Positions 30,963-62,514 of a stretch of DNA of 64,000 nucleotides are shown here, in pieces (within the stretch, counting starts at the first letter, position 1; each line of letters begins with the position of its first letter). The notes beneath the pieces are model-generated. The model saw nothing but the letters and a program-made list of their open reading frames with translations, was not told the DNA's origin and searched no databases. The DNA is taken from contig NC_080046.1 in NCBI RefSeq assembly GCF_012489685.1, positions 25,116,223 to 25,180,222 on the forward strand, written 5' to 3'. Made by a program: the position numbers and the translations under genes. This stretch comes from Lotus japonicus (lineage: Eukaryota; Streptophyta; Magnoliopsida; Fabales; Fabaceae).

Positions 30963-32580
30963 CTTCCATTTCATTCACTATATATATGTTGTTGTAGCTT
31001 GAAAAATGAAAAACAAAAATCTCACCCAAAAACCCACCCAAACCCGCGGCCAAGGAGGAAGGAGGAGGAGAAGAGTTTTTCGCCGATTCTTGCCTGATCG
31101 TCCCACAGTTCGTTGCTACGCGTAGGTCTCAAGGTACTGATGCTAATCCTTACTTCTGATCGTAAATTCTGCCGCTTTTCTCTATGCTTTTCTGTGCTAT
31201 AAGTTTTGTGCTTTTTGCAAAACTATCCAAATAACTTCATCTTTTTATCTAAACTTATTCCCTGCGTGCCCCTTAGCATGTTTAGCGGATTATATTTCGC
31301 CGATTCTCGCCGAATTGCCGCCGAGTTTCAATTCTGCTCATAATACCCACTTTTGGCTAAAGTTCCAACCTTTGGGCTTAAAACCCTCGACTGAGCTTAG
31401 CGTTAGTAAGATTAGTCGTCATAATCGTCGTTGGTATCGACCCCGTCTAATTTGTTTTTCGAAATTCTGATTTTGAGTTTTCGAGCTGAAAATAATGACC
31501 AAAATACCCCTGCGACAGTTTTTGATCCGATAATTTTTCCGAGTTTAGATTCACCTGAGTTACGACTAATGATAACCTAGGAACCAAGTTTGATCGAAGA
31601 AAAATCGACACACACAATTACCATGTGTGGCCGTGAGCACCCTAGGAGGAGGAAGAAAATTCTTTTTCGAAAACTTGTCCTTTCGCGCTAGATTATCGTA
31701 CCTCGGAGTATATGCTACTTCGTGTAGCCTTAGTGAGTGTTGATTTCCGAGTTTCTGATAGATTTTGATGGAATTCTGTGGTTTTTACTCTAAAGGTTCT
31801 TTTGAGGAATTTCCCGAAGAACAAGGAGCTGATTGTGAAGGAGCGTTTGGAGAGAACCCTGGAGAATCTACAGGTGAGGGCTACTCACTAAACTATTAGC
31901 TAATGCTTTAGGTGTCGACAAATTCGACTTGATTTACTGTTTATGCACTTGTTTGTGTTTGACTGGGAAAATGTTTTCTGAGGCTTCGGCTGACCATGAT
32001 GATTATTCATCTATTGACTGTTTTTGAGTTTGAATCACATGCTATGTACTAAATGGTTAATCTAGGATGTGTGATATCTGCTTTATATGCTAAGTGCTAT
32101 GTGGTTATTCTTGGATATGTGATATATGTGACTTGTTTGTTGACTGTGCTGATTTAACTATGCCATAACACATATATCTGTGGTACTGAGGAGTGAGAAT
32201 AACAGGCAAGTCATGCCAATTTTTATGAGAGTTTTGAGAAAGTTTGACGGGACGAACAGAGTTCGGGCCTTGTTATTGATTTAGTGGATCGAGACATTCT
32301 CTGGGAATTACTTGGGATTATGGGATCTTTGAAGGCTCATAGGAAATACGATAAGACTAAAAGGAAACTATTTTTACAAGGAAAATTCATAAGATATTAA
32401 ACAACCTCTAAACCTTTAAATAATGATAACAATCTCGGATGCAAGCTTAGGATTGAATATTAGTTTTGGAAAAGGAGAATTGTCGTCGAATCCAAGTTAT
32501 GGGAGAATTGTAAGTCCTGAGTATGCTGATACTCCTTCGCTCTTTCAGCAGTTTGTTTAGCCATCCATGGGATGAGCCGA

Positions 32581-32830
32581 GAAGCTTCACTGAGGCGTGA
32601 GACCTTGTGAAAGCGTGAATCTTCACTGAGGCGTGAGACCTCGTGGAAAGCATGGATCTTCATTGAGGCGTGAGACCTCGTGAACAGCATGAAACTTCAC
32701 TAAAGCGTGAGACTTCGTGCAAGTGTGTAAATTCACTGAGGCGTGAGACCTTGTGAAAGCATAAAACTTCACTGAAGCGTGAGACTTCGTCATTGTATAA
32801 GACTCCACTGAAGCGTGAGACTTTGTGAGA
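32581..32830 (+). repeat. Hairpin array in solo LTR (loop CGTGAGA)
   Basis: Seven units of about 34-38 bp. Each has CAC-T-arm, the constant heptamer CGTGAGA, then the complementary arm and GTG. Arms are GAGG with CCTC or CCTT, and GAAG with CTTC or CTTT, so when the left arm changes G to A the right arm changes C to T. Remaining differences are mostly G.U-tolerant. Confidence 0.75.
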
Positions 32831-33531
32831 GCATTGATGACTCGAAGAGTAATCGTGAGTGTTTGCACTCATTTTACGATTAATTGTATTTTGTCGCAGA
32901 ATCGACTTTTACCTTAGGGTAATCTTTTTAGAGACAATAAGTTAGTTAGAACACGTGGCGACGTGTCGAGTGAGGTCGGAGACGTTGTTTGGCTAATCAC
33001 TTTGCATTCATGCACTCATTTTGAGGTATTAACACGAGACGGACTTCAGACCTCGGTGGATTCCAAAATGGTCATAAGACCCAAATTTCCACGTAAGAAC
33101 ACTGCGGTGATTCTTAGTAGCAGACGGAAATGGCAGACCTTCGGGTTCACTGCTGATCTGACTACACTTTGTGTGGTGTAAGAGACACGCGAGCGGAAAT
33201 GGTCCCACCGTTGCTGGTGCTAGGATTGACTCGTTGATGCCCATCCGTTCCGGAATGCATTTGTTAACCGGCATTTCACTTCATGCAACATGCATACTGA
33301 CTTAGTCGCTGAGTGTGATTGATAATTGTTAATCCTATTTGATGCATGCTAATTGTTATTATCGTCTTTTATATTTATTGTGAACTGTACAACCCTAGGA
33401 TGCTATCTATAACTTATAAGCCTAAGTGGCTACTCCTTATCTTTACCTATTGGATTTATTATTTACATAATTCTTTGGAGTTGACCCTCGCGTCTTCTGT
33501 GTGTGCTTTGGCGGACTACGCCCTTTGTCAG

Positions 33532-33693: not shown

Positions 33694-34867
33694 TTCGGAG
33701 CGCTGGTGTGAGCTCCTCGAGATAGGATTAGTGTAGGAGTAGGGTCGTAGCTCTGATCGTCATTGTTTCTTTTGGGAACATGGTAGTTTCCCGCCGATAG
33801 CTTTTTGTGTGGTTTCTCTACGGAAATCACAGAGAGTTGGTTGGGCTAGGAGGTCTTCTTTTAGGCCGTTTGGGCTAACTCATTCTCATTTTTGAGGTTT
33901 GTGTTGCAGACACTTAACCTTTACTTTTGGTCTGTACATTTTGCCTACGGGCGTTACCTTCTGTTACTTCCCGTCACTGGAGGTTTACTCGTGACGTGGT
34001 TTGCTACTTACAGCGGGGGCTGTATTTATATTATATATTAGTTATGTTATCTTTTGTTGGGAGTTTATTTCTTTCAGTCTTTGGTTCTATTATCGGAAAA
34101 AAAAATTCACGTTTTTCCGCTTAAACTTTCTTTTTGGTTACTAAAGTGACGCCACCGAAATCGGGGTGTTACATTGGTTGAGACCTTTGATTCTTGCAAC
34201 TGGAACCTGTAGCCCTTGCTTGATTCTGGACCCAGAAGCCTTGCAATTGTCTTCTCAGTTATGATGATCCTTTTGCCCAGAATAAAGGATACTACTTGAT
34301 GCTCATTGCAATCAGCGTGTTTCCAGAAATCCTTCACCAGCTTATCTTACACAGGACCACTGATCCTTTGAAAATACCCTTCCCAGCCTTGTACTTGAAT
34401 CTCAGGACACAAGTCAAACCCATTTGCAGCAATGACATCAAAATCAAATCTCCATCCAGCAAGAAAATGGAGTTCTTCAGGAGCAAAGCAACAGGTGACC
34501 GCACATTGTCTCTGAGAAAGTGGGACAACATCCTCAGCATCTTGCACTTCATGTTGGGCACTCTTAGTCGAACGAGGACGCAGAACAGGACCCACTTGCC
34601 CTGTTGGAAGACCCACAACCATTTTGGGGAAAACTCTTCCATCGGCGGAATCAGACTTGTCACCGGAGTCAGCTCTTTCTTGATTCACCATTGTTGAGGA
34701 TGAAGGTTTGGGTAGAAGAGAAAGGGTCGAAAGCGAGAGAGAATTGAAGAAGATAAGGGTTTGGCAAAAGCAAGAGAGAGAAATTAAAACCGAAAGTGAT
34801 GGGAAACGTGTGTGCATAGTGGTTTTGAAGGTAACCATTGTTGATTAAAAAGCAAAGTGAAATCAAC

Positions 34868-44144: not shown

Positions 44145-44146
44145 AT

Positions 44147-44158
44147 TGGTATCAGAGC
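44147..44158 (+). other. Primer-binding site, initiator tRNA-Met
   Basis: TGGTATCAGAGC two bases after the 5' LTR. This is the complement of the 3' end of plant initiator tRNA-Met, used by nearly all plant copia elements. Confidence 0.92.
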
Positions 44159-44221
44159 TCCGGTTCTGATTTAAACACTTAACAATGATCAGTGATCCAG
44201 AACCTAGTGTGAAAAACAACG

Positions 44222-45145
44222 ATGGCCCAAGCCAATACTTCCGCTGACAACAACAAGAACAACCAACTCAGAGCACCGGTCTTTGATGGTGAAAAGTTTG
44301 AATACTGGAAAGATAGAATCGAAAGTTATTTCCTTGGCACTGACCCAGATCTCTGGGATATGGTCATGGAAGGCTATACTGATCCAGTAGATGCTTCAGG
44401 AGTGAAGATCCCCCGTAGTGAAATGACTGACGCTCAGAAGAAGCGTTTCAAGGATCATCACAAGGCGAAGTCTATGCTGTTCAGCTCAATATCATATATT
44501 GAATATGAGAAGATCTCTGACAAAGAAACAGCAAAGTCCATCTATGACTCCCTGGTCATGACGCAGGAAGGAAATGAAGAAGTCAAGGAGACCAAGGCTC
44601 TTGCTCTCATAAAACAATATGAGCAGTTTAAGATGGAATCTGGTGAAACCATTGAGGAGATGTACTCAAGGTTCCAAACTCTGATTGCTGGAATCAGAGT
44701 GCTAAACAAGAGCTACTCTACTGGTGATCATGTCAAAAGGATCATCAGAAGTTTGCCTAAGGAGTGGATGGCTTTTGTCACTGCACTAAAACTCTCAAGG
44801 AATCTGAACTCCTTGAAGCTAGAAGAGCTTGTGAGTCATCTCAGAAGCCATGAGATTGAACTCAAAGAGCACAAGCCTCAAAAGAAAGACAAATCTATTG
44901 CTCTTAAGTCAAAATCTGACAAAGCGAAAGCTTATCAGGCAGAAGAAGAAGATTCCTCTGAAGAATTATCACATGCGTATGGTGATGAAGAGCTATATCT
45001 TTTCACAAAGAGATTAAGCAAACTCTGGAAGAACAGACATAACAAGGGAAAAGGACTAAAGACACCTGTCATGGTACCTGGACAGTGGATGCTCGCGACA
45101 CATGACGGGCATAAGGTCTATATTCCAAAAGCTGATGCCGCTTAA
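44222..45145 (+). CDS. gag: Sirevirus B gag, 307 aa, internally deleted
   Basis: MAQANTSADNNKNNQLRAPV start, then the UBN2/copia-type capsid domain: FDGEKFEYWKDRIESYFLGT, LWDMVMEGY, AKSMLFSSISYIEYEKIS, KQYEQFKMESGETIEEMYSR, GDHVKRIIRSLPKEWM. After ELSHAYGDEELYLFTKRLSK the C-terminal part found in element A (zinc knuckle, coiled coil) is missing: KNRHNKGKGLK jumps to TPVMVPGQWMLATHDG. The gag frame ends at 45145, overlapping the pol frame, as in element A. Lacking the CCHC knuckle it would be poor at RNA binding. Confidence 0.88.
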   Translation: MAQANTSADNNKNNQLRAPVFDGEKFEYWKDRIESYFLGTDPDLWDMVMEGYTDPVDASGVKIPRSEMTDAQKKRFKDHHKAKSMLFSSISYIEYEKISDKETAKSIYDSLVMTQEGNEEVKETKALALIKQYEQFKMESGETIEEMYSRFQTLIAGIRVLNKSYSTGDHVKRIIRSLPKEWMAFVTALKLSRNLNSLKLEELVSHLRSHEIELKEHKPQKKDKSIALKSKSDKAKAYQAEEEDSSEELSHAYGDEELYLFTKRLSKLWKNRHNKGKGLKTPVMVPGQWMLATHDGHKVYIPKADAA

Positions 45146-48100
45146 GTCAGGAGGAGATGTTGGCTTTGGTGGAAACCAGAAGGGAAAAATCATTGGAAAA
45201 GGCTCCATAGGAGATGGAAAAATTCCAGTCATTAATGATGTACTTCTGGTGGAAGGATTATTGCATAACCTGCTCTCCATAAGCCAAATAGCTGACAAAG
45301 GTTATGATGTGATCTTCAATCAAACCGGCTGCAAAGCTGTCGGTCAAAGAGATGGATCTATTTTGTTTTCTGGGAAGAGAAGAAATGATATTTACAAAAT
45401 CAAATCTTCTGAACTGCTATCTCAGAAGGTCAAGTGTCTCATGTCCGTTAATGATGAGCAATGGGTTTGGCACAGACGTCTAGGGCATGCCAGCCACAAG
45501 AAGATCTCTCAACTAAGCAAGCTAAATCTCGTCAGAGGATTGCCTCGTCTGAAGTTCTCATCAGAGGCTCTGTGTGAAGCTTGTCTGAAGGGAAAATTCA
45601 CTAAGAATCCTTTTAAAGCAAAGAATGTGGTATCTACAACAAGACCCCTTGAGCTACTTCACATTGACCTCTTTGGACCAGTGAAAACTGAATCCATTTG
45701 AGGAAAGAAGTATGGGTTGGTCATTGTGGATGACTACAGCAGGTGGACATGGGTAAAGTTCTTAAGGCACAAGGATGAAACAAACACTATGTTCACCAAC
45801 TTCATTACCCAAGTTCAGAAGGAGTTCCAAACTTCAGTGATTATTGTCAGAAGTGATCATGGTGGAGAATTTGAGAACAAAGCCTTTGAAGAATTGTTCA
45901 ACTCTCAAGGGATCTCTCACAGCTTCTCCTGTCCTCGCACTCCTCAACAAAATTGAGTTGTTGAAAGAAAGAACATAACTCTTCAGGAGATGGCTCGCAC
46001 CATGATGCCAGAATCAAATATGGCCAAGCACTTCTGGGCAGAAGCAATCAACACTGCATGCTATATCCAGAACAAAATCTCCATCAGACCAATTCTGGAG
46101 AAGACTCCTTATGAGCTATGCAAAGGAAGACAACCTGATATCTCTTACTTCCATCCATTTGGAAGTACTAACTACATGCTTAACACTAAGAAGCAATTGG
46201 GTAAATTCGATTATAAAGCTTTAAAATGCTATTTTCTTGGTTATTCTAAAAGATCCAAAGGTTTTAGAATTTATAATATTGTCCATCAAACTGTTGAGGA
46301 ATCTATCCAAATTAGATTTGATGATAAAACCTTCAGAAGAGACTCTTCTGAGTCGGAAAGATCCAAAGTTGTTTGAAAGATTTGCAGATCTTAGCATTAA
46401 TCCATCCGAAGCTAATCAACCAAAAGTCAGTCCAGAGGATGTTGCTCCAGAGGCAGAAGCATCTGAAGATGCTCCACCAACTTCTGATCAACTTCATAAG
46501 AAGAAGAGAATAGTTGCTTCTCATCCAGAAGAACTGATCATCGGCAACAAAGATGCTCCTGTCAGAACTAGGTCCATGCTCAAACCTTCAGAAGAGACTC
46601 TTCTGAGTCTGAAGGGACTTGTATCTCTCATTGAGCCCAAATCAGTTGATGAAGCTCTTGAAAATAAAGGTTGGATTCTAGAAATGCAAGAAGAGCTAGA
46701 TCAGTTCACCAAGAATGATGTCTGGTCCTTAATGCCAAAACCCAAGGGTTTCCATGTCATAGGAACCAAGTGGGTATTCAGAAACAAGCTGAATGAAAAA
46801 GGAGAAGTGACGAGAAACAAGGCAAGACTGGTGGCTCAAGGCTACAGTCAACAAGAGGGGATTGATTACACTGAGACCTTTGCTCCTGTGGTAAGGCTTG
46901 AAGCTATAAGGCTACTGATCTCCTTCTCAGTGAATCACAACATCATTCTTCATCAGATGGATGTCGAGAGTGCCTTCCTTAATGGCTACATTTCTGAAGA
47001 AGTGTATGTCAAGCAACCTCCTGGCTTTGAAGATGACAAGCATCCGGAGCATGTTTACAAGCTCAAGAAGTCACTCTATGGACTGAAACAGGCTCCCAGA
47101 GCTTGGTATGAAAGGCTCAGCTCCTTTCTTCTACAGAATGAGTTTGTCAGGGGTAAAGGTGACAATACTCTTTTCTGCAGAACCTACAAGGATGATATTC
47201 TTATAGTTCAAATTTATGTTGATGACATTATATTTGGCTCTCCTAATCCTTCTCTTTGCAAGGAATTCTCTAAGACGATGCAGGCTGAATTCGAAATGAG
47301 CATGATGGGAGAACTCAAATACTTCCTGGGAATTCAAATTGATCAACGACCAGGAGTCACTTATATCCATCAGAAGAAGTATACTTTGGAACTTCTGAAG
47401 AAGTTCAACATGAGTGACTGCGACATCTCTAAGAATCCAATGCATCCAACATGCATTCTTGAGAAAGAGGAAGTTTCCTCTAAGGTTTGTCAGAAGCTAT
47501 ATCATGGAATGATAGGCTCTCTTCTTTATTTAACAGCTTCCAGACCTGATATATTGTTTAGTGTGCATCTCTGTGCTGGATTTCAATCAGATCCTAGAGA
47601 GACTCACTTAACAACTGTTAAGAGGATCCTCAAATATCTGAAAGGAACCACTAACCTTGGCTTGATGTATAGAAAAACATCAGAGTATACACTTTCAGGT
47701 TTTTGTGATGCTGACTTTGCTGGGGACAGAGTGGAAAGGATAAGCACCTCAGGGAGTTGCCATTTCCTTGGAGCAAATCTTGTCACTTGGTCAAGCAAGA
47801 GACAGAACACAATTGTCTATCAACTGCAGAAGCAGAATATTTCTCAGCTGCCACTTGCTGTACACAAACCATATGGATGAAGAATCATCTAGAGGACTAT
47901 GGTTTGTCTCTGAAGAAGGTTCCTATCTACTGTGACAACACACCTGCTATCTCACTCAGCAAAAATCCCATTCTACAGGCACATAGAGGTAAAGTATCAT
48001 TATATTCGAGATCATGTTCAGAAGGGCACTCTATCATTAGAGTATGTTGATACTGACCATCAGTGGGCAGATATCTTCACTAAGCCCTTAGCAGAAGATA

Positions 48101-48150
48101 GGTTTTTATTTATTCTTGAAAATCTGAACATGGACTTTTGTCCAGAGTAA
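45069..48150 (+). pseudogene. pol: Sirevirus B pol
   Basis: Begins in protease (WYLDSGCSRHMTG), then RRLGHASHKKIS..CEACLKGK, HIDLFGPVKTES, stop at 45699-45701, VDDYSRWTWVKFL, RSDHGGEFEN, stop at 45954-45956, [14 protein letters not shown], a frameshift around 46330-46350 with a local duplication of KPSEETLLS coding, then 500 open codons of reverse transcriptase/RNase H (NGYISEEVYVKQPPGFEDD, YVDDIIFGSP, GFCDADFAGDR). Two further frameshifts follow near 47815 and 47985 before the end DTDHQWADIFTKPLAEDRF..NMDFCPE. Five lesions make it non-functional. Confidence 0.92.
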
Positions 48151-48583
48151 GGTTCTCTTCAGAACTTCTGACCATGGTGCCTCTAAAGTCATCAGATGTT
48201 ACCCTTTCATAAGGTACTCGATCAGAAGCTCTTAACCCACCGGTTAAATTTCTGTGGTAGGCAACAATACACATGTCACTTCATTTGTGACATAGTTCCT
48301 TGAGTCGCGTGGTGTATCTGCTATAATGATGATGCCTACTCTCCTCCACTATGCTATTTTCAGACTAATTATTTTACAAACCGTTGATTTTGCTTTTCAC
48401 TTTTTGCCTTTTAAAATCTCAACGGTTACTATTAAAGCCACTATATGCACGATCTCACACACGATCTAATTCACACACATACACAAACGGTTTTCATAAT
48501 GCTTGTGTGCATTGAATTTCATTTACTCTTCTCCCTCCAATATTTCCTTCTCTCTGAACCCTAAACCCACATTCTTGAGAATC

Positions 48584-51298
48584 ATGGGCAAATCAAGGAA
48601 ATCAAGAGCAAATGTTACTGCCTCTTCCAAACTAACTGCTAAAGAGCAAGAGAAACAAAGATTTGAAGAAGCTCAGCAAATTCTGAACACGGAAAATGTG
48701 GTCACCTGCGTCAAGAAGGCTGAAGAACTGGTTGTGTGCAACGAAGCAAGAGTGGACTTCGACAATCTGGCTGAGCATGGGTTTGACATCAGGGATCAAG
48801 TAGACTTGCAAGGTTGGTCTGGTTATTTCAATAGGCTCTGCGGACCCATCTATTACAAATTAGTTGTTGAATTCTGGAAAAATGCTGTCTGCAACGACTA
48901 CTTTGTCGTTTCTCATGTACTAGATAGGAAGATTGTTATTTCTGAGGAATCCATTGCAAAATTGTTGGGAATGGAGTTCCAACAGGGGAAGAGAATCAAA
49001 AATGTGGATGCTAATGTTCCTGTCATGAGAAAATTAGTAAATAAAGCCATCTATGACAACTGGTCTTTGGAGAAGACGAAGTATGGCATAAAGGATCTGA
49101 AGCCAACAATGAAAATCTGGCAGAAGATTTTCATCTACTGCATTCACCCCAGAACGAGAGGAACTGACTACCTTAATGCAACTCAAAAGGTAATCATGTA
49201 CTATATTTCTAAGGGTGAGAATGCTTAGAAGCAAAGGAGATCCAATCACTCTTGAGGAATTCATCAAGAATCTTCCTGATAGTCCTCCTGAGGTGCCAAC
49301 AAGGAGGTCCAAGAGAACAACCAGCAAGCCTTCAGATCCCAAAGGCAAAGGGATTCTGATAGAGAAGACCAAGAAGATAAAAGCAGCATCAAAGTCTGTA
49401 GTCATCAAGGAACCCGTTCCAGAACTTTCTCCTGAAAGAACTCCAGTGGAGTCATCTCAGGAATCTCAATCTGATAGTTCTGAGAGCTCTATGGATTCTT
49501 CCACTGGAACCCAAGAAGAAGAAGTTCCACCTAGAAAGGATGTCAAGAGGAAAGCAATCATAGAAGAATCTTCTGATGAGGAAACTGAAGATGATGATGT
49601 TCCTCTGGTCAAAAGGCAAAGAATTCAAGCAACCCAAATTGAGGAAGAAGTTGAGCAGGATGACTGTGAGATTATTGAGAATGTGCTCCAAGTCATAAGG
49701 GAATCAGCAGAAGCTGACGAATCCACTGATTCTAATGTAGAGCCCATAGGCAAGAGAATGAAACTACCTCTGAAGGGTCCACTTCAGAAGAAGGAGTCAG
49801 AACCAAAGCAAGCTTCTGAAACTCTTGCAGAGGTACAAAGAGAAAGGAGATCAAAGATAGCGTTAGATCCTGCAAGGACTGCTAGACTCACCAGATCTAC
49901 CATACTAAGAGAATCAAGTAAGGAATTTACTAAAAGCATTAATTTAGATTCTACTTTAGTAGTTATTCATGAACAACCTGTACCTATATCTACATCCCTT
50001 CCAACATCAACCCAAACAGTTTTACCCTAAACAGAACCTCAAACAAAAGCTCCCCACTCAAACATCCAAACTGTTACCACCTCCATTCCATCCATCCCAA
50101 TTCAAACCTCTTCCACATTCACCACCACTGAGTCTGCACCCCTCTTCAATTCATTCATCAAGGATATCGCTTAGAGTGAAGCCACCTTAAGGGACTTGGT
50201 TCAGCAGTTCACACCCAAACCTCAATCCACCTCAAGAACTCTTCTAATAACTGAATCTGGGGAGATTCCTGCTGAGAAGGACGATGAAGATGAGGATGTT
50301 CAGATTCTAGAACCTCCCTTCAATGTGCAACCTATCCAGCAGGTAGCCTCCTACTTTGAAGATGTGCTCCCTGATGCTGTTGCTGAGTCCTCCTATGTGT
50401 CCTTGTCTCACTACTCCACAGTGAACTCAAGAGATCTGAGTTTCACTTCACCTGAGAAGACTGCTACATCCAGACAAAGACAAGAGACAATTCCTGAAAT
50501 TGAACGCATGGATGAATCAGATCATTCTGGACAAGGAAAAGCTCATGTGGATGAATCAATGCCTTCGGGGCAAATGAGGACTGAAAGTTCAAATGCATCA
50601 AGTTCAAATGCAACCAACTCTCCTACCGGCCACAGAATCTTATTCAGCTCATTCAGGAGTTCTCTGATGAAGCAACCAGAAGACTGCAATGGCTGTATCA
50701 AGTAACTTATAATCAATTTGATGCATCTCTGGTTGATGGCATGTGGTATGCTTTTGGAAGATGGTCAGAAAGTAGGGCTTCTGAGATTGAGAAGCAGCTT
50801 AGCAGATAGAAGCGTCTAAGAGTTCATGATGCTTCAGAAAGAGCTTATGAGCAGAGGCAGAGGGTGTTACACAAGGTCTGTGAGCCCATGAGAAGGGCCA
50901 TGGCTGAAAGAACTCATGTTGTCTCTGAACGTACCTCAGAAGATGCTGATATGATTTCAGCAGAGGTTGCAGAGGACAGTGCTGAAGAGATCATTATTCA
51001 TGAGACTGCAGAGGTTGATGAAGTTCAGATGGAAATGCCTACTCAAGCTGCGGCAGAAGTTCAGGCACCTACAGATGTTCCTATTCAAGCTCCAGAACCA
51101 GCTCCACAACCGAAAGTTGCTCTCCTGGCTGCCAGAATTGATAGGATACAAGATGATCAGCAGAGGCTGTTTCAGATGGTTGAACATCAAGGACTTATTC
51201 AGAGTGAACAAAGTCGGCAGATTCAGGAATCCTCCAGCAGAATGGAAGCCATGATGAAGTATCTGATCGAGAATCTCCCATCTTCATCCAAGCCTTGA
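48584..51298 (+). pseudogene. Sirevirus B envelope-like gene
   Basis: MGKSRKSRANVTASSKLTAK start at 48584, 433 nt after pol. Blocks match copies A and C: FDNLAEHGFDIRDQVDLQGW, SGYFNRLCGPIYYKLVVEFW, FVVSHVLDRKIVISEESIAK, LKPTMKIWQKIFIYCIHPRT. At ~49218 a deletion of roughly 120 codons plus frameshift joins to LEEFIKNLPDSPPEVPTRRS, followed by a Lys-rich/acidic region, stops at 50028-50030 and ~50174, a Ser-rich region, further breaks (50703, 50809) and a C-terminal coiled coil (LLAARIDRIQDDQQRLFQMV..) ending LPSSSKP. Same unknown-function Sirevirus family. Confidence 0.82.
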
Positions 51299-51543
51299 AC
51301 CCCTCTTATCTATCTTTCATGCATAATTTATTTTAATTATCTGTGAACTTAATTCATGTTTGACTGTGTTTAATTTTGCAACACTTATTCAATGCACCGT
51401 CCATTTCTTTTAGTAACTCACATGCATTTATGATTCGTTGAGTTTTATACATGTTTTTCTGTTACTTCCCTTCCTTATAATTTGTTGCTACCCCTCTTCC
51501 TCATCACAACTCAACTCAATTCTCTTCTCTTCTCAAACCAAGA

Positions 51544-51975
51544 ATGACTTCTGTTGAATTGATCTCTGAACTCAAGACTCTGGTATTTGACCAGGTCTAT
51601 CCCTGGAGTGTTAATCTCTCTATTTCTCAAATCTCTCAAGCTCTTGGGAAGATTGAGAATCTTTTAGACTGTTGGCTGACATCCCATCAGACTCACTGTC
51701 TTCAAAATCTTCAGGAAGTTCTGAACGACCTCCTTCGTCTGGCCTCTCGCCGGAAGGACCTTGAAGCTCAGTTCGAGGGCATTTGTGTGCTTCTTGAACA
51801 TGAAGAAGATCAAGAAGAAGCAGGTCAAGATGCTGCCTCCACTCCTGCTATCTATGAAAGTGAAGTTCTGAAGGAAGAACTGGCTACCCAGTTAGCCTCC
51901 ATTTATCAGGACATTCGTCCCCTGCACCTTCAGCTTCTTTCCATGAAGGACTCTCGTGCCTTCTTATGTATCTAG
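51544..51975 (+). CDS. Small ORF downstream of env-like gene in Sirevirus B, 143 aa
   Basis: Intact 143-codon frame MTSVELISELKTLVFDQVYP... with a CT-rich leader (51495-51543) like a plant 5' UTR and an AT-rich trailer (TTATTAATAATAACAAG). Mostly helical, Leu/Glu-rich (LQNLQEVLNDLLRLASRRKD, EHEEDQEEAGQDAAS, LKEELATQLASIYQ). It is remarkable that this frame is intact while gag, pol and env-like of the same element are all broken. A resemblance to the opposite-strand ORF 35598-35990 of element A is weak. No family recognised. Confidence 0.5.
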   Translation: MTSVELISELKTLVFDQVYPWSVNLSISQISQALGKIENLLDCWLTSHQTHCLQNLQEVLNDLLRLASRRKDLEAQFEGICVLLEHEEDQEEAGQDAASTPAIYESEVLKEELATQLASIYQDIRPLHLQLLSMKDSRAFLCI

Positions 51976-52107
51976 GACTAGTTTTCTTCGTCCTTTCTAT
52001 CCTCTGTACTCTTTCTTCGTTTATTAATAATAACAAGCGTCTTATCTGCATTACTTCCTTGGATGTTATTGTTATTGGTTGTGTTTTCCACTCTTTTTGC
52101 TTATGAC

Positions 52108-52603
52108 AAAAAGGGGGAGTACATAAAATGGTTTTTGATAAAATTTTAACTTTGCTTATATTATATAATAAAACCAGTAGAGGAGAATAAGTATCAAATA
52201 CTTATAGCACATAGATATTGCCAAGCGTCGCCTAAAACAAGGAATACATTTTGTTCAAATCTGAACTTATATGTCTCTGATGCCTTATTCCAATACACCT
52301 AGACAATACTCTATGTTTCCATGTGATCTACGCGAGTTCTGAACCATCAATTTCTGATGAGTATACATCCTTCTACGACTCCGAATCTAGACTCTTCATC
52401 ATCTCATCAAGTCATAGATTCAGGGGGAGTCAGGGGAGACTCTAGCTCAGAATCAAGTGCAATACTAGATTCAGAAGGAGCAACATAAACCATTACACAA
52501 GGATAAGTTTAAACTCTGATCTCTTCTCTCTTGTGTATTCAGTTTATTGTTTAAGAATTGTTCATCAAAATACTTGTTTTGTCATCATCAAAAAGGGGGA
52601 GAT
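52108..52603 (+). other. Sirevirus B multiple polypurine tracts
   Basis: CAAAAAGGGGGAG at 52107-52119, CAGGGGGAG at 52431-52439 and AAAAAGGGGGAGAT at 52590-52603, the last touching the 3' LTR. Same multi-tract arrangement as at 1555-2004. Confidence 0.8.
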
Positions 52604-53844
52604 TGTAAGATCAAGGTTTGATCAGTGGTTGCATCTCTATATTTTGATGATTACAATTAAGGTTTGTGATGATGAACAATTGTGGTACCCTAACGTTGGT
52701 CTCTTTTAGTTTTGACAAACAGGTTCTGATTCTGGCCCAAGCTGATTCCTTCAGAAGAAGAAGAACCAAGGGTTACTAAAAAGAGAGCTCTAAAGCTTAC
52801 CATGTTCGTTCATAACAGTGGCAAATCCTTCAGAAGTTCTGAAGATAGAAGCTCTCAAGAGGTACTGAAGAACCGGATTCAGAAGCTCTGAAGACCAGAG
52901 ATTCCAGAAGGAACGGTCCTGACAGTAGAAGACTCAAGTTCTGAAGACCTGTAAGAAGTTGGCTCTGAAGACCTAAGCTATTCTAGCTCTGACGTTCAGA
53001 AGTTCTGAGGAACTTGTTCAGAAGCAGAAGTTGCAAGGTGAGAGGATCCAAGCTTCCGTCTGACTCTGATCAGAAGCTTCACCAACGTTCATCTGAAGCA
53101 CTCCAGATCATAAGCCAGCTGGTGAAAGGACAGGTCACTGTCATAGTACACATCGTACAGTCTCGGTCTGACCGCCACCTACCTCGTTCAGCCTAGCAGT
53201 ATGATATTACAAGATTGCCACTCCAACGGGCAAAACCCTAGCAACGGCTATACCATATGCCTTGGAGTATATAAGGGCTGAAGAAAGAAGAAAGAAGCTG
53301 AGAAACTTTGCTGAAACCATTCAACTTATTCTAGTCGATCTCTTAGCAATATTTCTTCATTGTTCTTAAACATCTGAGTTTACCATTAGCTTTTCAGAAG
53401 CAATTCTTGTAAACCCAAAAGTCTTTACAAATACTTTGTAAGTTCCTTGAGAGATCAAGTTTGGTCAGATCTTGAGAGGACTGAATCAAGGTTGATTCAG
53501 TGTTTAACTAGTCTTGAGAGGATTGGTAGATCAGCTTCTTAAGAGTATACTAGTGAGAAAATCAGTGTATTGTTAGTCACTTAGCAGGAAGCAAAGTGCA
53601 GTTGTAACACTCATTGATTTTAGTGAATTGCCTTCATCAGAAGAAGGAAGAAATCACCTTCACGGGTGGACTGGATTAGCTTGAGCTTTTATCTCAAGTG
53701 AACCAGGATAAAATACTTCTGTGCTATACTTCATACCCTTCAGCACCTTGTTCTTATCTTTGAGTTTGGAAAAATTTCAAAAGTATATCTTTTGTTTAAA
53801 AACTCTATTCAAACCCTCCATTTCTAGTGTTTTTCGCACCTTCA
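52604..53844 (+). repeat. 3' LTR of Sirevirus B
   Basis: 1241 bp. Same ends as the 5' LTR, about 35-40 scattered differences by eye. Confidence 0.93.
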
Positions 53845-55931
53845 CATAAAAGCCATTAAGCTTCTATCTACGCTTTTAGCTAGGAATATTTGAAAGGATT
53901 TTTCATATTTAGATTCATTCTTACTATCAGAGGCATCACAAGCAACTACTTCTTCTAACTTAGCAATCTAGTTCTTAAGCACAGAGTTAGAATTCACTAA
54001 AGCATTATTATCATTTTTCAACTCAAAAATAATTTTCTCATGTTCAGAAGGAGTCTTAGAAGCAGCAGAGAAATCCTTTTTCAACTTTTTATGCTTAGTC
54101 AATAAAGAGTTATACTTATCCATAATATCAGACAAAGCATGTTTTAGTTCAGAGGTTGAGAAAGAAGCGAATACCTCATTTTCATCGTCTGAGTTAGAAT
54201 CTTCTTCTGATGCTGAGTCAGAGTCAGTTGCATCTTTTGACTCTGCTTCTTTGTCTTTGACAATAGCCATGAGCCCTTGAACTTCACCATTAGAGTCAAC
54301 ATCCTCTGACTCTGATTCGTCAAAAGTCATCATCAGACTTTTCTTTGTCTTGAAGTGCTTCTTTGGCTTCTTGTCCTTTTTCAGCTTTGGACAGTCACTT
54401 TTGTAGTGCTCTGATTCTTTGCACTCGAAGCATGTGACTTCCTTGATTGAGGACTTCTTCTAGCCTGATGAGGATTCAGACTTTCCTTTGGCCTTTCCAG
54501 AGCCTCTGTACTTGCTCTGCCTGTGCTTCTAGATGCGGTTGAGCCTTTTTGAGACCAGAGTCAGCTCATCTTCATCAGAATCTTCTGATGCTTCTTCAGA
54601 TTCTTCTGCTTCAGCTTGAAGAGCTTTTGACTTCTCAGATTTAGCCTTCTCAGATTTGGATTTCAAGGCTATAGATTTCTTCCTCAGATCCTGCATCTCT
54701 GAGAGCTTCAGTTCATGACTGTGACACCCCGATTTCGGTGGCGTCACTTTAGTAACCGAAAGTAAACTTAATGCGGAAAAACGTGAATATATTTTTTTTT
54801 TGATAATAACTAAGACAAGACTGAAATAGATAAAACCCAAAAGCGAAAAACAACAGAACTAATGTACAATATATAATACAGTCCCCGCTGTAAGTAACAA
54901 CCTCGTCACGAGTAACCTCCAGTGACGGAAAGAAAAGTGTAGCGCCCGAAGGCAATATGTACAGACTGAAAGTAAAGGTGAAGTGTCCGCAACACCATCC
55001 CTCAAACTGAGAATGAGCTGGCCCATCGGCCTGAAACAAGACCTCCTATGTCCAACCAACTCTCTGTGATTCCCGTAAAGAAACCACACAAAAAGCTATA
55101 GGTGAGAAACTACCCTGTCCCAAAAGAAACAAATGATGTTCAGAGCTAAGACTCTACTCCTACACTAATCCCATCTTGAGGAGCTCACACCAGCACTAAA
55201 ACCTACATGCTAGCATGATCGTCGTCCGAATTTGAAATCCAGAACTGTAAGACCTGAATTTTTAGAACAAGCTAGTTTCCGACTCACGCGTAGGATCAGT
55301 GTAAGCGTGACAGGAGTTTGATATTTGAGGAAGATTAATGAAGAAGAAAGTTCGGGAATTGCTTGAGGAATGTTGCGTAGTCGTTTTCGGAGTTAGTGCG
55401 AGACGTCTGCACACTTGCCTTAGGGCGAGCGTGTCCAGAATAGGCTATTTCGCTCTTAAAGCAACGTTTTGAGTGAGATTTCGAACTCTCGGAAAATTTA
55501 AAGATTCTCTTTATTTTTCCATCGACCAGCGTTTCATTTCGGAACTCTGGACTGTACGCACGATAGGTTTCACTTTTCGGATGTCCGCCGACGCTAATTT
55601 CTTTGCTTCGAAACCCTAATTTTGAGCGATGGATGAAGACTTTTTCTATTCGGGACTTCTAACGAAGATTCCGTCCGTGTTGTTAGACTTGTTTCGACGT
55701 TTCCAATCTTTCTTCAGTAGGAAGTTTTGTCGTCTGAGCATCACATCAAAAAGTAGTTTTTCGGGGCAGATTAACCGACACCGCTTTTGAGTTTTTCGAT
55801 ATCGTTTTTCCCAAATCTTAGATGTTTGTTTTGAGTTCTGGATTCTGACGCCAGAATCTCTCTTAGAATTTCTCGGTGAACGTGCTGCAAAAATCGGAAT
55901 CGCGAAATTTTCATTTTCCCGCGATTTCACC

Positions 55932-55947
55932 CGCCTATAAATAGGCG
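55932..55947 (+). promoter_or_regulatory. TATA box inside a palindrome
   Basis: CGCCTATAAATAGGCG: a canonical TATAAATA flanked by fully complementary arms CGCCTAT/ATAGGCG, ~690 bp from the LTR start. Probably the LTR core promoter. Confidence 0.65.
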
Positions 55948-57409
55948 AAAAAGCAAAAATCTTGCCATTTCACCCATTCAAGGCCGCGGTTTGTGGAGAG
56001 AGAGGGAGAGGAGAGATTTTCGCGAAATCTTGACCAATCTTCGTGCAGTTCGTCCCTACTTCTAGGTATCGAGGTAACTATCATGAATCCTGCCTCTGAT
56101 TTCTGTTTCTGCTGAGTTTCTGAAGTCGTTTCTGTGCTCTAAGTTTTGAGCTTTTTCTAAAATTGTCCGATTTCTCTGATTTCTCGCTTGGGTTATGTTC
56201 CTTATGTTCCCCTGAGTCTAAAACCTCTGTCAGTAAACTCTGATTGCGATTCATTTGTCCAGGGTCTGAAAAATTGACTCAAAACTCTTTTTGTCTCACA
56301 TTTCGAAACTTTATTGTCGTAAAGCTATAATCTGACTTCGTGCCTTTAGGATTTGTTGTCACGGATGCATTGAGGATCAATACTGTCAAATCTGTTTTCA
56401 GAACTGATAACTTTGAAGTTTTGAGCCTTTATTTTGGACCAAAATGCCCCTGCGTAGTCGTATTTCGACCCGATTGTCCGAAAATTGTTCTGACAGTTTC
56501 TTTGCCTTGGTTTTACCCTAAAACTACCTTGTGAATTGATTTAATCAAAGAAAAAGAGCCGAAGCCCTTTTCTCGTTATGGCCGTGGGTTATTTCCTAAG
56601 GGGGGGGGGAGTTTTTCGTTTTCGAAAACTTGTCCTTTCGTACCCGGTTGTCGTATTCTGAAGCTTTAATGCTTTGTCTATCGTTTATGTATTGTTTTGC
56701 GATCGAACTAATCGATTTTGTTTGAATTCTGCTTTGTTTTTCTCCGAGGTTCAGTTGAAGGAACTTTGGAATATTCAGAGCAACTGTTTGAGGACAACCT
56801 TGATTTCGAAGCTGGAGCAGCTCGATGTTAGGGCAACTTACATATATATTAGCTATGATTGCATGATAGGCGTCGATAAATTCGACTTATGCTTTGCTAT
56901 GATATTGATTATGATGATGGTTATTGTTATGAATGTTTTCATAACTTATGATGTTGATGTTGTGTTGGATTGAGCGTTTTGACGCAACTTCGGAGTGGAG
57001 ATTCATTGATCTGGTGATCTTTGATATTTCGGGTTGGATGAACAACCCTAGGCAAGTCCAAATGAGGGGTTTGAGACTTAGCCCTGTTGGTATTTGTTGG
57101 TTTACATAGACTTTCCCCGGGAAACTTCTTTTGGGTGGTTGGTTTTCGGAAAACTTAGAAGGATTAGAATTTCGAAAACTAAAGACTTGGGAAACCTATA
57201 TTTTGAGAAATAAACTCATAACCTGACTAATCTGAATTGAAATCATTTTTATTAACGTTTAAGTATAGGAAAACTAAAGGGGAAAATATTTACGAAAGAC
57301 GGGGAAAGTCGACTTTTGTTGTGGGTTTTGGAGAGATTGGGGGAAAGCCACTGCGGTGAGCTAAAGTGACGAATGAAAGTCACCGAGTACCTTAGTACTC
57401 TTGTTATTC

Positions 57410-57559
57410 GAGTGGTGTTGTATTGACCGACACCTAGTGCTCTTGTTGTTTGGGTTGTGTTGTATTGACCGACACTAGACCCTTGTGTTTTCTTGTTGGA
57501 GTTGTGTTGTATTGACCGACACTTACTCCGAGTTGTGTTGTAATGACCGACACTAACTC
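57410..57559 (+). repeat. Hairpin array 1 (core GTGTTG-TATTGAC-CGACAC)
   Basis: Four units. The core stem GTGTTG/CGACAC (one G.U pair in RNA) encloses TATTGAC (TAATGAC in the last). Outside the core the arms differ from unit to unit but pair within each unit: GGGT/ACCC (57452-57482), GGAGT/ACTCC (57498-57529), GAGTT/AACTC (57530-57559). Confidence 0.8.
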
Positions 57560-57646
57560 ATTGGGTTGTTTGAGATTGGATTGTGCGCTAGACACTTTCG
57601 TGGTAAGGACGATTCGTTGTTTGGCTAACCACGTTGCATTCAATCG

Positions 57647-57888
57647 GGTGAATAACGGGAATGGTTCACCTGTGCATATCATGGTGAATAACGGGAATGG
57701 TTCACCTTGCATAAATGATGAATAACGGGAATGGTTCATCATATGGTGAATAACGGGAATGGTTCACCAAGGATGAATAACGGGAATGGTTCATCCAGGA
57801 TGGATTTCATCCAGGATGGATAACGGGAATGGTCCATCCATAGTGAAGAACGGGAATGCTTCACTTGTGGCGAACGGGAACGCGTCAC
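57647..57888 (+). repeat. Hairpin array 2 (loop AACGGGAA) with covarying arms
   Basis: Eight units sharing AACGGGAA, each flanked by complementary arms: GGTGAA/TTCACC (57647, 57683, 57745), GATGAA/TTCATC (57717), GGATGAA/TTCATCC (57771), GGATGGA/TCCATCC (~57815), GTGAAG/CTTCAC (57843) and GTGGCG/CGCGTCAC with a wobble (57867). Nearly every arm substitution is matched by its complement. Confidence 0.85.
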
Positions 57889-58126
57889 AAATCCGGATTC
57901 ATAATTGCATTTCACGCATACATTCATGCTGACTGAGACTGTGTGCTGTTTGTTTATTGAAGCAATGTTAGAGCCATAACATGCTAGGATTACTTATATG
58001 CTTAAATTACAACTTATATATATACCATGTCACATGTTGTGTGTATATGTACTTATTGCTGTGAGTTGACCCTAGCGCCTTGGCTTTGTTTGTATGTTTG
58101 TGTTTGGGCGGTCGGCCTGCTGCCAG

Positions 58127-58795
58127 ATGTCGATGGCCGACTGGTTCTCGACGGTCTCTCCCTCGGGGGGGATCAGATATGAGCTGCTGGATCGGGATGC
58201 CCCCACCGCTTGGGTGATCGATGTAGCTGGTCACCGAGCGACGTATAGGGGAAGGGTCATGGAGGACCGGACGGATGAGCGAGGACGCCTGACGAGCGGA
58301 GTGCTACGGCGTATGGAGCTGAGTTTTGACTTGCCGCCCTCAGTTCATTGTGGACCAGGCACTGGACATGCACCACCTGCACCACCTCCGACTTCACCTT
58401 ATGTTGAGGAGGACCCAGAGGAGATCGAGCCTGCTGCTGCTGCTACACCTGTTGTGCCACCTCCGGCTACTGCCATCGCTTCTACCGACGTGGCGTCGTC
58501 CTCTAGGCTCGTACAGCCGAGGAGGGAGTCTGTTGTCCCATCTGCCTCACGTCTCTTATCTTTCTCTTCACCGCACGGCTACCGTGTGGACCCCTTGATG
58601 AGGGTGGAGGAGGAGGATGTTCTCACAGGAGAGGTGGATGTGGAGACCGGCTCGACTAGGGCGGTGCGCAGGACAGTGAGGAGGGAGGTTATGGACTTGG
58701 ACACCGAGATGATTACGGTGGATTCCGACTCTGACTCCGAGAGCAGTGGGGAGAGCTACTCGCCGAGCAGCGATGAGGAGGAGGAGGATTGGTGA
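58127..58795 (+). CDS. LTR-encoded ORF, 222 aa, unknown function
   Basis: Open from MSMADWFSTVSPSGGIRYEL (58127; the same frame is open from 58094) to DSDSDSESSGESYSPSSDEE..W at 58795. N-terminal ~80 residues look globular (TAWVIDVAGHRATYRGRVME, LTSGVLRRMELSFDLPPS), the middle is Pro/Ala/Ser-rich and the end strongly acidic. It ends 468 bp before the LTR terminus. The GC content is clearly higher than the surrounding LTR. Broken relatives sit at the same place in the LTRs at 1-593, 30048-34173 and 54720-62514, and a positional counterpart at 25485-25931. I recognise no family. Confidence 0.55.
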   Translation: MSMADWFSTVSPSGGIRYELLDRDAPTAWVIDVAGHRATYRGRVMEDRTDERGRLTSGVLRRMELSFDLPPSVHCGPGTGHAPPAPPPTSPYVEEDPEEIEPAAAATPVVPPPATAIASTDVASSSRLVQPRRESVVPSASRLLSFSSPHGYRVDPLMRVEEEDVLTGEVDVETGSTRAVRRTVRREVMDLDTEMITVDSDSDSESSGESYSPSSDEEEEDW

Positions 58796-60073
58796 GCTGA
58801 GCTGGGAGGGTAGGTTAGGGTTAGTGACATTTTTTGTGTAGAGCTCTGATCATCAGTTTCTTTTGGGGACAGGGTAGGTTCCGATGTGTGGCTTTTTGTG
58901 TGGTTCTTTTGAGGAGGATCACAGAGAGTCTGTCGGAGTATAGAGGTCTTCCTTTCAGGCCATTTTTGAGTGCCGACTTTCTCTTGGATAACTGTATTTT
59001 GATACTTTTACTCACAGTTCTGGTTTGTATATTTGCCTGCGGGCGTACTACTTTGGAGTCACTGCGGCTTCGTGTGACATGGAGTGCAGCCGAGGCTGTA
59101 CAGATGTATATATTTGTATATCGGTTAGTTTAGTTGTTGGGTGTTGTCTCTACTTCTTTATCGCTTTGATTTAAAGGAAAGAAACGGAAAAAAAAATTAC
59201 CTGTTTTCCGCGTAAAGTTTATTTTTGGTTACTAAAGTGACACCTGGAAATCGGGGTGTTACAAGAACGACCTAGTCTATGTACACCATCCGTCCTCCTC
59301 TCGCTACCGCGATGCACTCCTGTTCCAGCATCCCAACCCTAGTTCCCCCCGAAGGGTGAACCATCATGAGCTAGCCCGCCAAAGACATCTGACAATGGGC
59401 GTTTGTCCGCCAAAGCACACACAGAAGACGCGAGGGTCAACTTCAAAGAATTATATAAATAGTACCACCGATAGATACAGATAAGGAAATAGCCATTTAG
59501 GCTTATAGCTAGGGATAACATCCTAGGGTTGCATATTTCACAATGAACATAAACGACAGTAATCACAATTAACATGCCTCAAATAGAATTAACAAGTATC
59601 ACACACACTCATCAACTAAGTCAGTATGCATGTTGCATGAAATGATATGCAGGTTAACCCAGTCAACCAATATGCAATCCGGAACGGATGGACATCAACG
59701 GATCAGCCCTAGCACCAGCCACGGTGGGACCATTTCGGCCTGCGTGCCTCTTATTCCAACGACAGCGGTAGTCAGATCAGCCGTAACCCGTAGGTCTGCC
59801 ATTTCGGTCTGCTACAAGAGACGTCTACAGACGCTCTTACACGGAAATCCGGGTCTTATGACCATTTTGGAATCCGACGAGGTCCAGAGTACGTCCTGTG
59901 TTAATACCTCATTAATGTTGCATGAATGCAGGATGATTAGACAAACAACGTCTCTGAATCTCACTCGACACGTCGCCACGTGTTCTAGGTAAATTAAAGT
60001 CTCTAAAAGCTTACCCTAAGGTAAAGTCGATTCTGCGACAAAAGACACTTCTCAACAACAACACATAACCCAC

Positions 60074-60213
60074 GATGATCTCCAAATCATCCGACTCATC
60101 TCAATCCGATGGTCGCAACTGCTCAACGAGCACAGAGTATCCACATACTCGGGAACTATCAATTCCCCGGACTTATCCCCAGGATAGCCCAACAACATAG
60201 CTGCTCCAACAGC
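60074..60213 (-). repeat. Hairpin-rich segment of the outer LTR
   Basis: At least five short perfect stems in 140 bp: GATGA/TCATC (60074-60091), CATC/GATG (~60096-60110), GAGTAT/ATACTC (~60145-60160), GGGAA/TTCCC (~60161-60177) and GCTG/CAGC (60200-60213). Loops are C/A-rich (TCTCCAAA, TCAATCC, CTATCAA, CTCCAA). More degenerate than the arrays in the other LTRs but in the equivalent place. Confidence 0.5.
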
Positions 60214-62514
60214 ACAACAACAAACGCGGCTCCAACAGCACAACAACAACACATACTCAACGCCTCTCAACTTTTTCAACACTAGGATCCGACGACACTT
60301 CTCGTTTTCCAACTAAGATTTGCATCCAAAGCTTCCTTTCGAGTTTATTATCATTAAATGAAGATTTAAAGGTTGTTTAATGTCTTATGAGTTTTCTTTT
60401 CAAAATAATATCCTTTTAGTCTTATCGCAAAATCTTATAAGTTCTCGGGATCTCCTAATCCCCAACTGACACCAGAGAATGTCTCGATCCATACAACACC
60501 ACGACAAGGTCCGAATCTCATTCGTCCTATCACACTTTCTCAAAACTCTCAAAATAAAATCGGCATGACCTGCCCGCTATTCTCGCCATTCAGAATCTCA
60601 GATCTCATTGCAAAAGCATAAATACTCAGCACAACCAATCAACATGTCATATATCAACATATTAAGCAATAATCACATAGCACTTAGCATATAAGGCATG
60701 CACCACACATCCTAGATTACCCACATAGCACATAGCATGTAAGTCAATCTCAAAAACATTCAGTAGATGAATCATCTACATTGTCAGCCGAAGCCTCAGA
60801 AAACATTTTCCAATCACACACAATCCAGTGCATAAACAGTAAACAATGTCGAAAACATCGACCCTAAGTATTAACTAGAGATTCAGTGAGAAGCCCTCAC
60901 CTGTAGGTTCTCCAGAATGATCGTCTAACGCTTCCTCGCAAGCAAAGCCTTGTTCCTCGGGAAACTCTTCAAAAGCACCTTTAGAACAAAACCACAGAAA
61001 TCAATCAAAATCTATCGAAAACTAAGTTATCGATACTTACTAAGGTTACTCGAAGTAATCTATACTCTAAGGTACGATAATCTAGCGCGAAAGACAAGTT
61101 TTCGGAAAAGGAAATTTTCCTCCTCCTCCCCCTATAGGCTCGGCCACTTTTCACAATTAGGAGACTCGATTTTTCTTCGATCAAACTTGGTTCCTATGCT
61201 ATCATTAGCCGTAACTAAGGGTATTCTGAACTCGGAAAAATTATCGGATCAAAACTGTCGCAGGGGTATTTTGGTCATGATTTTTAACTTAGAAATTTCA
61301 AAACTGAAATCCCAAAAAACCAAATTTTGCAGGGACGTCACCAACGACGTTTATGACAACTAATCCTACTAGCACTAAGCTAAGGCGATAGTTTTCAGCC
61401 TAAAGGTTGAAGCTTTACTCCAAAAACTCCAAAAATGGGTATTTAAGGCTAAAATTGATTCCGGCGGAATTCCGGCGACATAACGGAAAATCTAACCCGG
61501 CAGAAGTGATCTTGGGCATGTAAGGAAGAGGTTTAGAATCAGAAATGAAAGATTCAGGATAGTTTTGCAAAAACCCATAAACTATCAGCTCAGAAAAGTC
61601 TACAGAAAAGCTATGGAAAAAGTGATCAGAGGTAAGGATTAGCGACTATACCTCGAAACCTTGAAGCAGCAACTAACGGATCAACGATCAAGCAAGTAAT
61701 GAAGAAAATTCTTCTTCCTTCTTCCTTGGATGAACTCGCGGCCTTGAGGAGAGAAAATGGAGGAGTTTTATGTTTTTTTTCTCACTTGTTTGCTATATAA
61801 AGAAGATGGAAATTCGCGGGAAAATGAAAGTTTCGCGAATCTGATTTTTCCGGCGTCATTCTCCGTGAATTAATAGATATGTTTTGGCAAAAGAATTCCA
61901 AAACTATAAAGATGTCTCCTTGTATTTTTGGCAACTAATGCATAGTCGGTATAAAACTATTTTACCCGATAAGTTGCTTTTTGCATCGAATGTCGGAATA
62001 GAAAACTTCCTTAGGAAGAAAGATTGAAATCATCAAGAGAAATGGGTGTACGCGTGTAGAATCTTCATTTGATGTTCCGAATAGAAAAAGTCCTCATAGT
62101 CGGGTAATTCTAGGGTTTTGAAACACCAGGGTTTCGGTTTCGGCAAACTTCCGGTGATTGGAATCGGACGTTCGTAGATCCTAGAGTTTCGCCTCGAAAC
62201 GATTGTGATATATGGAAAAAGAGAAGTTCTAACATTTCTCTGAAGAATTTTGGAAGAAATTCCTACAGTGTTCCAAGGGTGGAACATAGTTTGATTTCCT
62301 AAGGTTCTTGTCCTAGGTTTTAAAACGAATATTAGTCGTGCTATAACTTAAATCGACTTCGATAAAATCCTTTGACTTTTCCTGAACTTTCTCCTTCATA
62401 AATCTATTTCATTTGACAAACTCTTGTTCAGGTTTCCTTTCACAATACATCAACCCTAATCGTGAATAAGAAATTTATTCACTTAGCATAAACTTAAAAA
62501 ACTTGGGCCTTACA

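Follow-up and report, generated by a model that had tools for sequence, protein, structure and literature searches.

Tandem hairpins with a fixed loop and covarying stems in a Ty3-type LTR of Lotus japonicus

Eight neighbouring units in a long terminal repeat (LTR) of Lotus japonicus share one short motif, and the arms on either side of it differ from unit to unit. The locus raises the question of whether the folded stem, and not its letters, is what is kept, at which level (RNA or DNA) this happens and what such an array could be for. The window is the whole stretch of 64,000 nt that was analysed. Arrays, pairing, covariation and splice-like sites were all observed by computation. The features are listed in Table 1. 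LTR A carries the arrays A1 and A2 and sits within the inverted related LTR B; the related LTR C lies elsewhere in the window.

Table 1. Positions of the features in the window
Feature	Position	Strand	Description or basis
Solo LTR C, related to A	30048-34173		5-bp duplication TTGGT on both sides
Array in LTR C	32573..32834	+	seven units, loop CGUGAGA
Solo LTR A, Ty3-type	55246..59263	+	4018 bp; starts TGTAAGACC, ends GGTGTTACA
TATA box TATAAATA	55936..55943	+	sequence
Donor-like splice site	56064..56078	+	AGGTATCGAG then GTAAC (GT at 56074); sequence
Single hairpin GTGAC/GTCAC ahead of the arrays	57366..57383	+	sequence and fold
Anchor hairpin	57385..57400	+	GAGTAC-CTTA-GTACTC; sequence
Array A1	57405..57560	+	four hairpins; inner stem GUGUUG/CGACAC, 7-nt loop UAUUGAC or UAAUGAC
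Array A2	57647..57888	+	eight hairpins with covarying stems; loop AACGGGAA(T/C)G
Additional (ninth) hairpin within A2, lacking the loop motif	57798-57812	+	GGATG-GATTT-CATCC; sequence and fold
Acceptor-like site, directly before the ORF ATG	58117..58126	+	CTGCTGCCAG; sequence
Small acidic-ended ORF	58127..58795	+	222 aa from MSMADWF; open frame from 58094
Matching stretch of LTR B	60050..60281	-	non-identical hairpins including an anchor hairpin (60135-60150)

All eight A2 units with their common loop were found where the original prediction had placed them. Each unit is a hairpin with a stem of 7-9 bp, and the unit starts are spaced 24-43 nt apart. Five distinct pairs of 7-nt arms occur: GGTGAAT/GTTCACC (three times), GATGAAT/GTTCATC (twice), GATGGAT/GTCCATC, AGTGAAG/CTTCACT and TGTGGCG/CGTCACA. 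The predicted change of the arms in step was borne out: the inner 7-bp stems are paired in all 56 cells by Watson-Crick or G.U pairs (seven G.U, no A.C), and the 8-bp stems in 62 of 64. The alignment of eight pairs in eight sequences has two-sided changes at six pairs, and two pairs are invariant. The stem has one inner pair more than had been described, U.G or, in units 7 and 8, G-C. The loop is therefore 10 nt long, and AACGGGAA is its first eight letters.

The covariation score of the array was 0.594, compared with a mean of 0.214 after shuffling, and none of 500 shuffles reached it. Sliding the partner by one to three columns (six registers) lowered the pairing to 29-53% of cells. When the 3' arms were swapped among units, 12 of 40320 permutations paired equally well, which is no more than the number expected because three units and two further units are identical and exchangeable. 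With arms of 12 nt, none of the other pairings among the 40320 matched the true one in folding energy. Eight perfect hairpins were found at 57340-57900 (seven array units and the hairpin at 57385), compared with a mean of 1.4 and a maximum of 5 in 1000 sequences of a Markov null. An Rfam scan of the 64-kb window gave no match at the gathering score, and the exact A2 unit had no match in viral contigs.

The A2 unit is abundant in the genome. The pattern AACGGGAATGNTTCA occurred at least 9804 times genome-wide, and its reversed control not once. We used 79 loci (L009-L047 and L051-L090) plus two from the window; the repeats L001-L008, L048-L050 and L091 were excluded. L009-L027 and L051-L090 all lie on contig C1, and L028-L047 on C1-C5. 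The first 20 copies (L009-L027 and the window) are the least biased set, as the pattern fixes the loop and only four bases of the 3' arm; in these, 950 of 959 cells pair (826 Watson-Crick, 124 G.U, 5 A.C and 4 other, the A.C and other cells being the remainder). The pattern used for L028-L047 required four inner bases to be paired, and L051-L070 came from lists of perfect units; paired units and the GACAAAG type are over-represented in both sets. L071-L090 were picked by a G.U unit, and the G.U share is inflated there.

With identical array strings counted once, the loci gave 58 distinct arrays with 412 units and 44 arm types. Of 2884 cells, 2841 were paired (2518 Watson-Crick and 323 G.U; 7 were A.C and 36 other). 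The core was exact in 386 of the 412 units, in a search that tolerated one mismatch only. Units with unpaired arms, which would have spoken against a maintained stem, are few, and 396 of the 412 keep all six inner pairs. Across the 44 types, 283 of 308 cells pair when each type keeps its arms; 5000 arm shuffles reached at most 248. Further stem types such as GACAAAG/CTTTGTC bear the same loop, and new paired stems occur in divergent arrays such as L027. The number and order of the units vary between copies. Eleven types are found in at least nine arrays; ten of them pair at all seven positions and AGTGGCG/CGTCACA at six. Genome-wide, GGTGAAT..GTTCACC was found at least 4346 times, GATGAAT..GTTCATC at least 2981 times and their A.C hybrid at least 33 times (reversed controls: none), counts that mirror descent as well as selection.

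Types that have spread were then set against private ones. The types in at least nine arrays differ by two-sided changes in 9 of 13 changed columns (four are one-sided), in a type tree from which six types of middling spread were excluded; an alternative weighting gave eight two-sided and five one-sided columns. Private types, each compared with its nearest relative, are two-sided in only 1 of 29 changed columns (Fisher p 1.4e-5; 2.7e-5 to 0.004 with other cut-offs and weighting). Looser cut-offs gave two- to one-sided ratios of 7:8 (at least three arrays) and 7:12 (at least two arrays; 7 of 19), and the rarer types under them 1:32 and 1:28. The number of independent two-sided events is about 7-9, not thousands. 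Fresh changes in inserted copies are thus mostly one-sided, and types that spread are compensated more often. Relatedness alone does not predict this split. Two-sided changes among widespread types together with one-sided private changes fit selection in a replicating lineage and not neutral drift. The claim that the folded stem is kept, and not its letters, is hence supported by the 58 arrays, by the arm shuffles and by the contrast between private and widespread types. The sole private type with a two-sided change is a unit of L036, GACGAAG/CTTCGTC, next to the common GACAAAG/CTTTGTC.

A2 is one of several arrays in this stretch of the LTR, and the original prediction had understated the case. 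The outer arms of A1 covary in units 2-4 (GGGT/ACCC, GGAGT/ACTCC and GAGTT/AACTC); in unit 1, the outer extension is short. GAGTAT/ATACTC occupies the place of the anchor hairpin in both related LTRs of the window. The array of LTR C lies between this anchor-type hairpin and a motif common to LTRs A and C, and its inner arms alternate between GAGG/CCTC and GAAG/CTTC. The arm-swap test was weaker here than in A2, with 56 of 5040 permutations pairing as well. One of the seven units, at 32777, did not form its hairpin in the folding test, and the C stretch showed no excess of perfect hairpins (it has two, and 289 of 1000 nulls had as many or more). Of the 241 core matches in 20 C-type arrays, 212 were taken as hairpins, and the other 29 were excluded by rule as spacers. 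The 36 distinct C types pair in 257 of 288 cells, compared with at most 248 in 5000 arm shuffles. In A1 (94 types), A2 (99) and C (62) alike, none of 400 arm shuffles reached as low an energy as the true arm pairing. A1, A2 and C arrays hence behave alike in pairing despite the unrelated letters of their loops. In three LTR copies on C1, namely L077 (C1:31309700-31310900), L081 and L082, A2- and C-type units apparently lie within about 200 bp of each other, judged by their coordinates. This neighbourhood suggests modular exchange of arrays.

In a fold of 630 nt, 10 of the 12 A1 and A2 units formed local hairpins with a probability of at least 0.8. The probabilities of A2 units 1 and 2 in the unrestricted fold were 0.26 and 0.41; these two compete with longer-range pairs unless the span is limited. 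The sense fold was stabler than the antisense fold in 84 of 94 A1, 89 of 99 A2 and 41 of 62 C types. G and T make up 57.7% of the sense strand at 57330-57960, and part of this advantage is therefore composition. For single units, the sense-minus-antisense energy was -3.11 in A1 (shuffled: -1.33) and -1.95 in A2 (shuffled: -0.93), both outside the range of 30 shuffles; the value of the C units, -1.57, was within the shuffled range of -1.70 to -0.81. In A1 and A2, but not in C, wobble pairs therefore seem to favour the sense strand more than base composition would explain. We rejected the whole stretch 57330-57960 as evidence on the strand: its value of -45.4 kcal/mol, against a shuffled mean of -53.1, is explained by composition. 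The z-scores from 30 shuffles were -3.6 (sense) and -4.6 (antisense) around A1 and -2.2 and -5.0 for the B stretch. The sense strand of the C array was not stabler than shuffled sequence (z -0.7 to 0.3), and z-scores of the LTRs are noisy. The unit-level excess in A1 and A2 thus favours selection at the RNA level, whereas the full stretch does not. Over all results, and with a slight deduction for the composition control, we regard it as likely that the stems are kept as RNA structure.

LTR A is flanked by the 5-bp target duplication AGAAC (55241-55245 and 59264-59268). Its ends, TGTAAG..TTACA, give it the TG..CA termini that, together with a short target duplication, mark an LTR. The assignment to Ty3 comes from one element on C1 whose two LTRs (L013 and L014) carry identical arrays. 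Its internal piece (L093) matches RVT_1 and RT_RNaseH in Pfam, and the downstream piece (L094) matches SH3_Tf2-1 and, below the curated cut-off, rve. Reverse transcriptase and RNase H are hence followed by integrase-end domains, which is the Ty3/gypsy order. By eye, L094 and the sequence beside LTR B show a tail like a chromodomain; Pfam gave no chromodomain match. The element resembles chromoviruses of the Tekay/Del clade, to which it may belong. Other repeats were seen in the window. A copia-type element or nest spans 42904-53844, with direct repeats of 1241 bp (42904-44144 and 52604-53844) that are 96.7% alike and enclose a copia gag ORF. Inside LTR C, 4.5 tandem copies of a 32-bp unit lie at 30820-30964 (97% matches), and a tandem 21-bp repeat with a self-complementary part, GCGCTGGAGCGC, lies in a hairpin-dense spot at 23505-23564.

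The original prediction had placed the array between the likely promoter of the LTR and its small ORF and hence in the RNA leader. These places of LTR, promoter and ORF stood up; the array, by contrast, probably belongs to a leader intron that is spliced out and not to the mature leader. Fifteen of 16 further copies have a TATA-like box, and the sequence stretch of the sixteenth (L102) seems to start too late. The exact TATAAATA was absent from LTRs B and C of the window. The TATA box of LTR A lies within a palindrome, GCCTATAAATAGGC, the matching right half of which is missing in most other copies compared. The donor-like string was present in all 16 further copies with at most two mismatches, 116 to 138 nt downstream of the TATA box where both were found. 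An acceptor-like CAG adjoins the ORF start in 47 of 81 loci. Where at least 450 nt follow the array (47 loci), the acceptor-ATG string was found in 34 and missing in 13. LTRs B and C keep the donor and acceptor places. These conserved splice-like sites probably delimit an intron of the leader, about 2.05 kb long (56074-58126). Both arrays fall inside it and would be present in unspliced RNA only.

From the likely start to the small ORF there are 47 ATGs, too many for plain scanning to the ORF to be likely. The ORF had no match in a Pfam search. Its six database relatives are four uncharacterized Lotus japonicus proteins and two without a name. Among 20 copies, that of the window has the ORF intact, two others have it open as far as their sequence extends, and 15 have it broken by a stop; in two, the start was not found.

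Little is known about how plant LTR retrotransposons choose the genomic RNA that they package. Retroviral psi is a structured leader RNA downstream of the splice donor and consists of a few distinct stem-loops. The reading that we prefer is similar. Selection on replicating elements would maintain clusters of RNA hairpins in the LTR. Each cluster would be a tandem array in which the loop hardly varies and the stems are free to change provided that they pair. As the loop is invariant on such stems, it is most likely the recognised part, with the stem as its holder. The arrays would lie between a promoter-near donor and an acceptor right before the small ORF. Spliced RNA would then lose the arrays and make the small protein, and unspliced genomic RNA would retain 12 or more fixed-loop hairpins. 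The putative binder of the loop would be the Gag of the element or a host protein, and the loop site would mark the unspliced genomic RNA in the manner of the retroviral packaging region. Splicing, binding partner and packaging role are what we infer here; conserved stem-loops in the leader, as a packaging signal would have, were found by prediction and covariation only. The whole statement, that the selected hairpin clusters are a multi-copy loop-binding site by which unspliced genomic RNA is marked to be packaged or sorted, we place slightly short of an even chance. Packaging or sorting of unspliced RNA, taken as the role of the arrays, is a tentative proposal.

The main rival to packaging or sorting is an aid to splicing, in which the hairpins compact the 2-kb leader intron and hide cryptic splice sites and the loop is simply inherited from a founding unit. 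The position of the arrays between donor- and acceptor-like sites agrees with this, as does the different-loop array at the matching place of a related LTR, as if structure and not letters were needed. A mere spacer, however, should let the 10-nt loop drift, and the loop was exact in 386 of 412 units (one mismatch being allowed in the search) while the stems change; we judge this rival rather unlikely. Long leader, many upstream ATGs and strong structure ahead of an ORF would also suit a translation device, by which ribosomes shunt past the 47 ATGs as in caulimovirus leaders. Yet known shunt leaders, as far as the accessible part of PMC5902531 describes them, use one large stem-loop and not many small hairpins, and an acceptor-like site touching the ATG is the simpler route, which leaves shunting highly improbable. 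A DNA-level element is improbable; it would consist of cruciforms or of binding sites with dyad symmetry, in line with a proposal for the LTR palindromes of Sireviruses. Clusters of palindromic repeats in LTRs are known and, in the passages available, thought to be cis-regulatory (PMC2829016, PMC10760457), and the strand bias of the C units and of the whole stretch is within composition. Against it stand the location of the arrays downstream of the TATA box, the fixed unpaired loop within a variable dyad, and a strand bias of A1 and A2 units that exceeds composition.

Two further rivals concern the origin of the matching arms. By template switching inside the hairpin during DNA replication or reverse transcription, one arm could be copied onto the other, so that mutation and not selection would match the stems in one step. 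Such a mechanism has been reported, and stems can be both created and repaired by it (PMC8794818, in the part at hand); the multi-base two-sided step from GATGAAG to GACAAAG, at two neighbouring pairs, fits it. The private changes in inserted copies are, however, one-sided in 28 of 29 columns. Template switching should moreover yield strict Watson-Crick stems, and the U.G closing pair persists in 7327 units of two types; it should act in dead copies and remove wobble, and neither was seen beyond one private column. We consider it unlikely; a form limited to reverse transcription may be at work. An ordinary minisatellite, in which matching arms descend from a few founding units and have no present function, agrees with the variable number and order of units and with the origin of many copies from few masters. 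Inheritance explains identical copies but not two-sided differences between widespread types. It also leaves the new paired stems in divergent arrays (L027) unexplained, and likewise the common behaviour of three arrays whose loops are unrelated; the chance that we give it is very small.

Close in kind are the LTRs of Sireviruses, Ty1/copia elements with palindromic repeat clusters upstream of the TATA box and a CGG-CCG core in nearly all elements (PMC2829016, as far as its accessible text goes). Bousios et al. reportedly dealt in 2016 with maize palindromes and small RNAs. Common to the Sirevirus LTRs and the arrays here are many clustered dyad-symmetric units in plant LTRs that are able to form hairpins. 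The arrays here (57405-57888) are in contrast downstream of the TATA box at 55936, they vary the arms and keep the loop where Sireviruses keep the core, and their element is Ty3-type. Maize Ty3 elements generally have no obvious hairpin peak, according to the portion of PMC10760457 that we could use. The leader RNA for packaging and dimerisation of Ty1 is structured (PMC5454406, accessible part). The retroviral leader is structured too and lies downstream of a splice donor. Those leaders have a few distinct stem-loops, whereas the window copy has 12 in two arrays with one loop each. Large non-chromovirus Ty3 elements of plants have LTRs of several kb and tandem arrays in non-coding parts (PMC6317226, citing Macas et al. 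on the 3' untranslated region); hairpins are not mentioned for them in the accessible part of that paper, and the arrays here are hairpin arrays. Two-sided stem changes are common to our arrays and to the template-switch hairpins of PMC8794818 (accessible part), but template switching is a mutation process, and the private changes here are nearly all one-sided.

The titles and abstract openings searched, mostly outside the subscription literature, do not mention arrays of covarying hairpins with a fixed loop in LTRs. LTR leaders that are structured and rich in repeats are known; the fixed-loop covarying organisation and the evidence for its selection we did not find described.

A broader idea, which we hold to be doubtful, is that of a modular and fast-evolving hairpin code in the leader intron. 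Any array would serve as long as one loop is shown repeatedly on paired stems, and loop families would swap at the same place of the LTR (UAUUGAC or CGUGAGA; AACGGGAAUG is a third family next to these). The code would perhaps co-evolve with Gag or with an LTR-encoded partner, whose reading of the loop would separate genomic from spliced RNA. A loop preserved across thousands of units, on stems constrained by pairing alone, would be a defined RNA bait for a partner protein, and the many natural array variants could be used for testing such a partner. Moreover, dead copies and propagated types can be compared within one genome, which makes these arrays a case for studying how two-sided stem changes originate.
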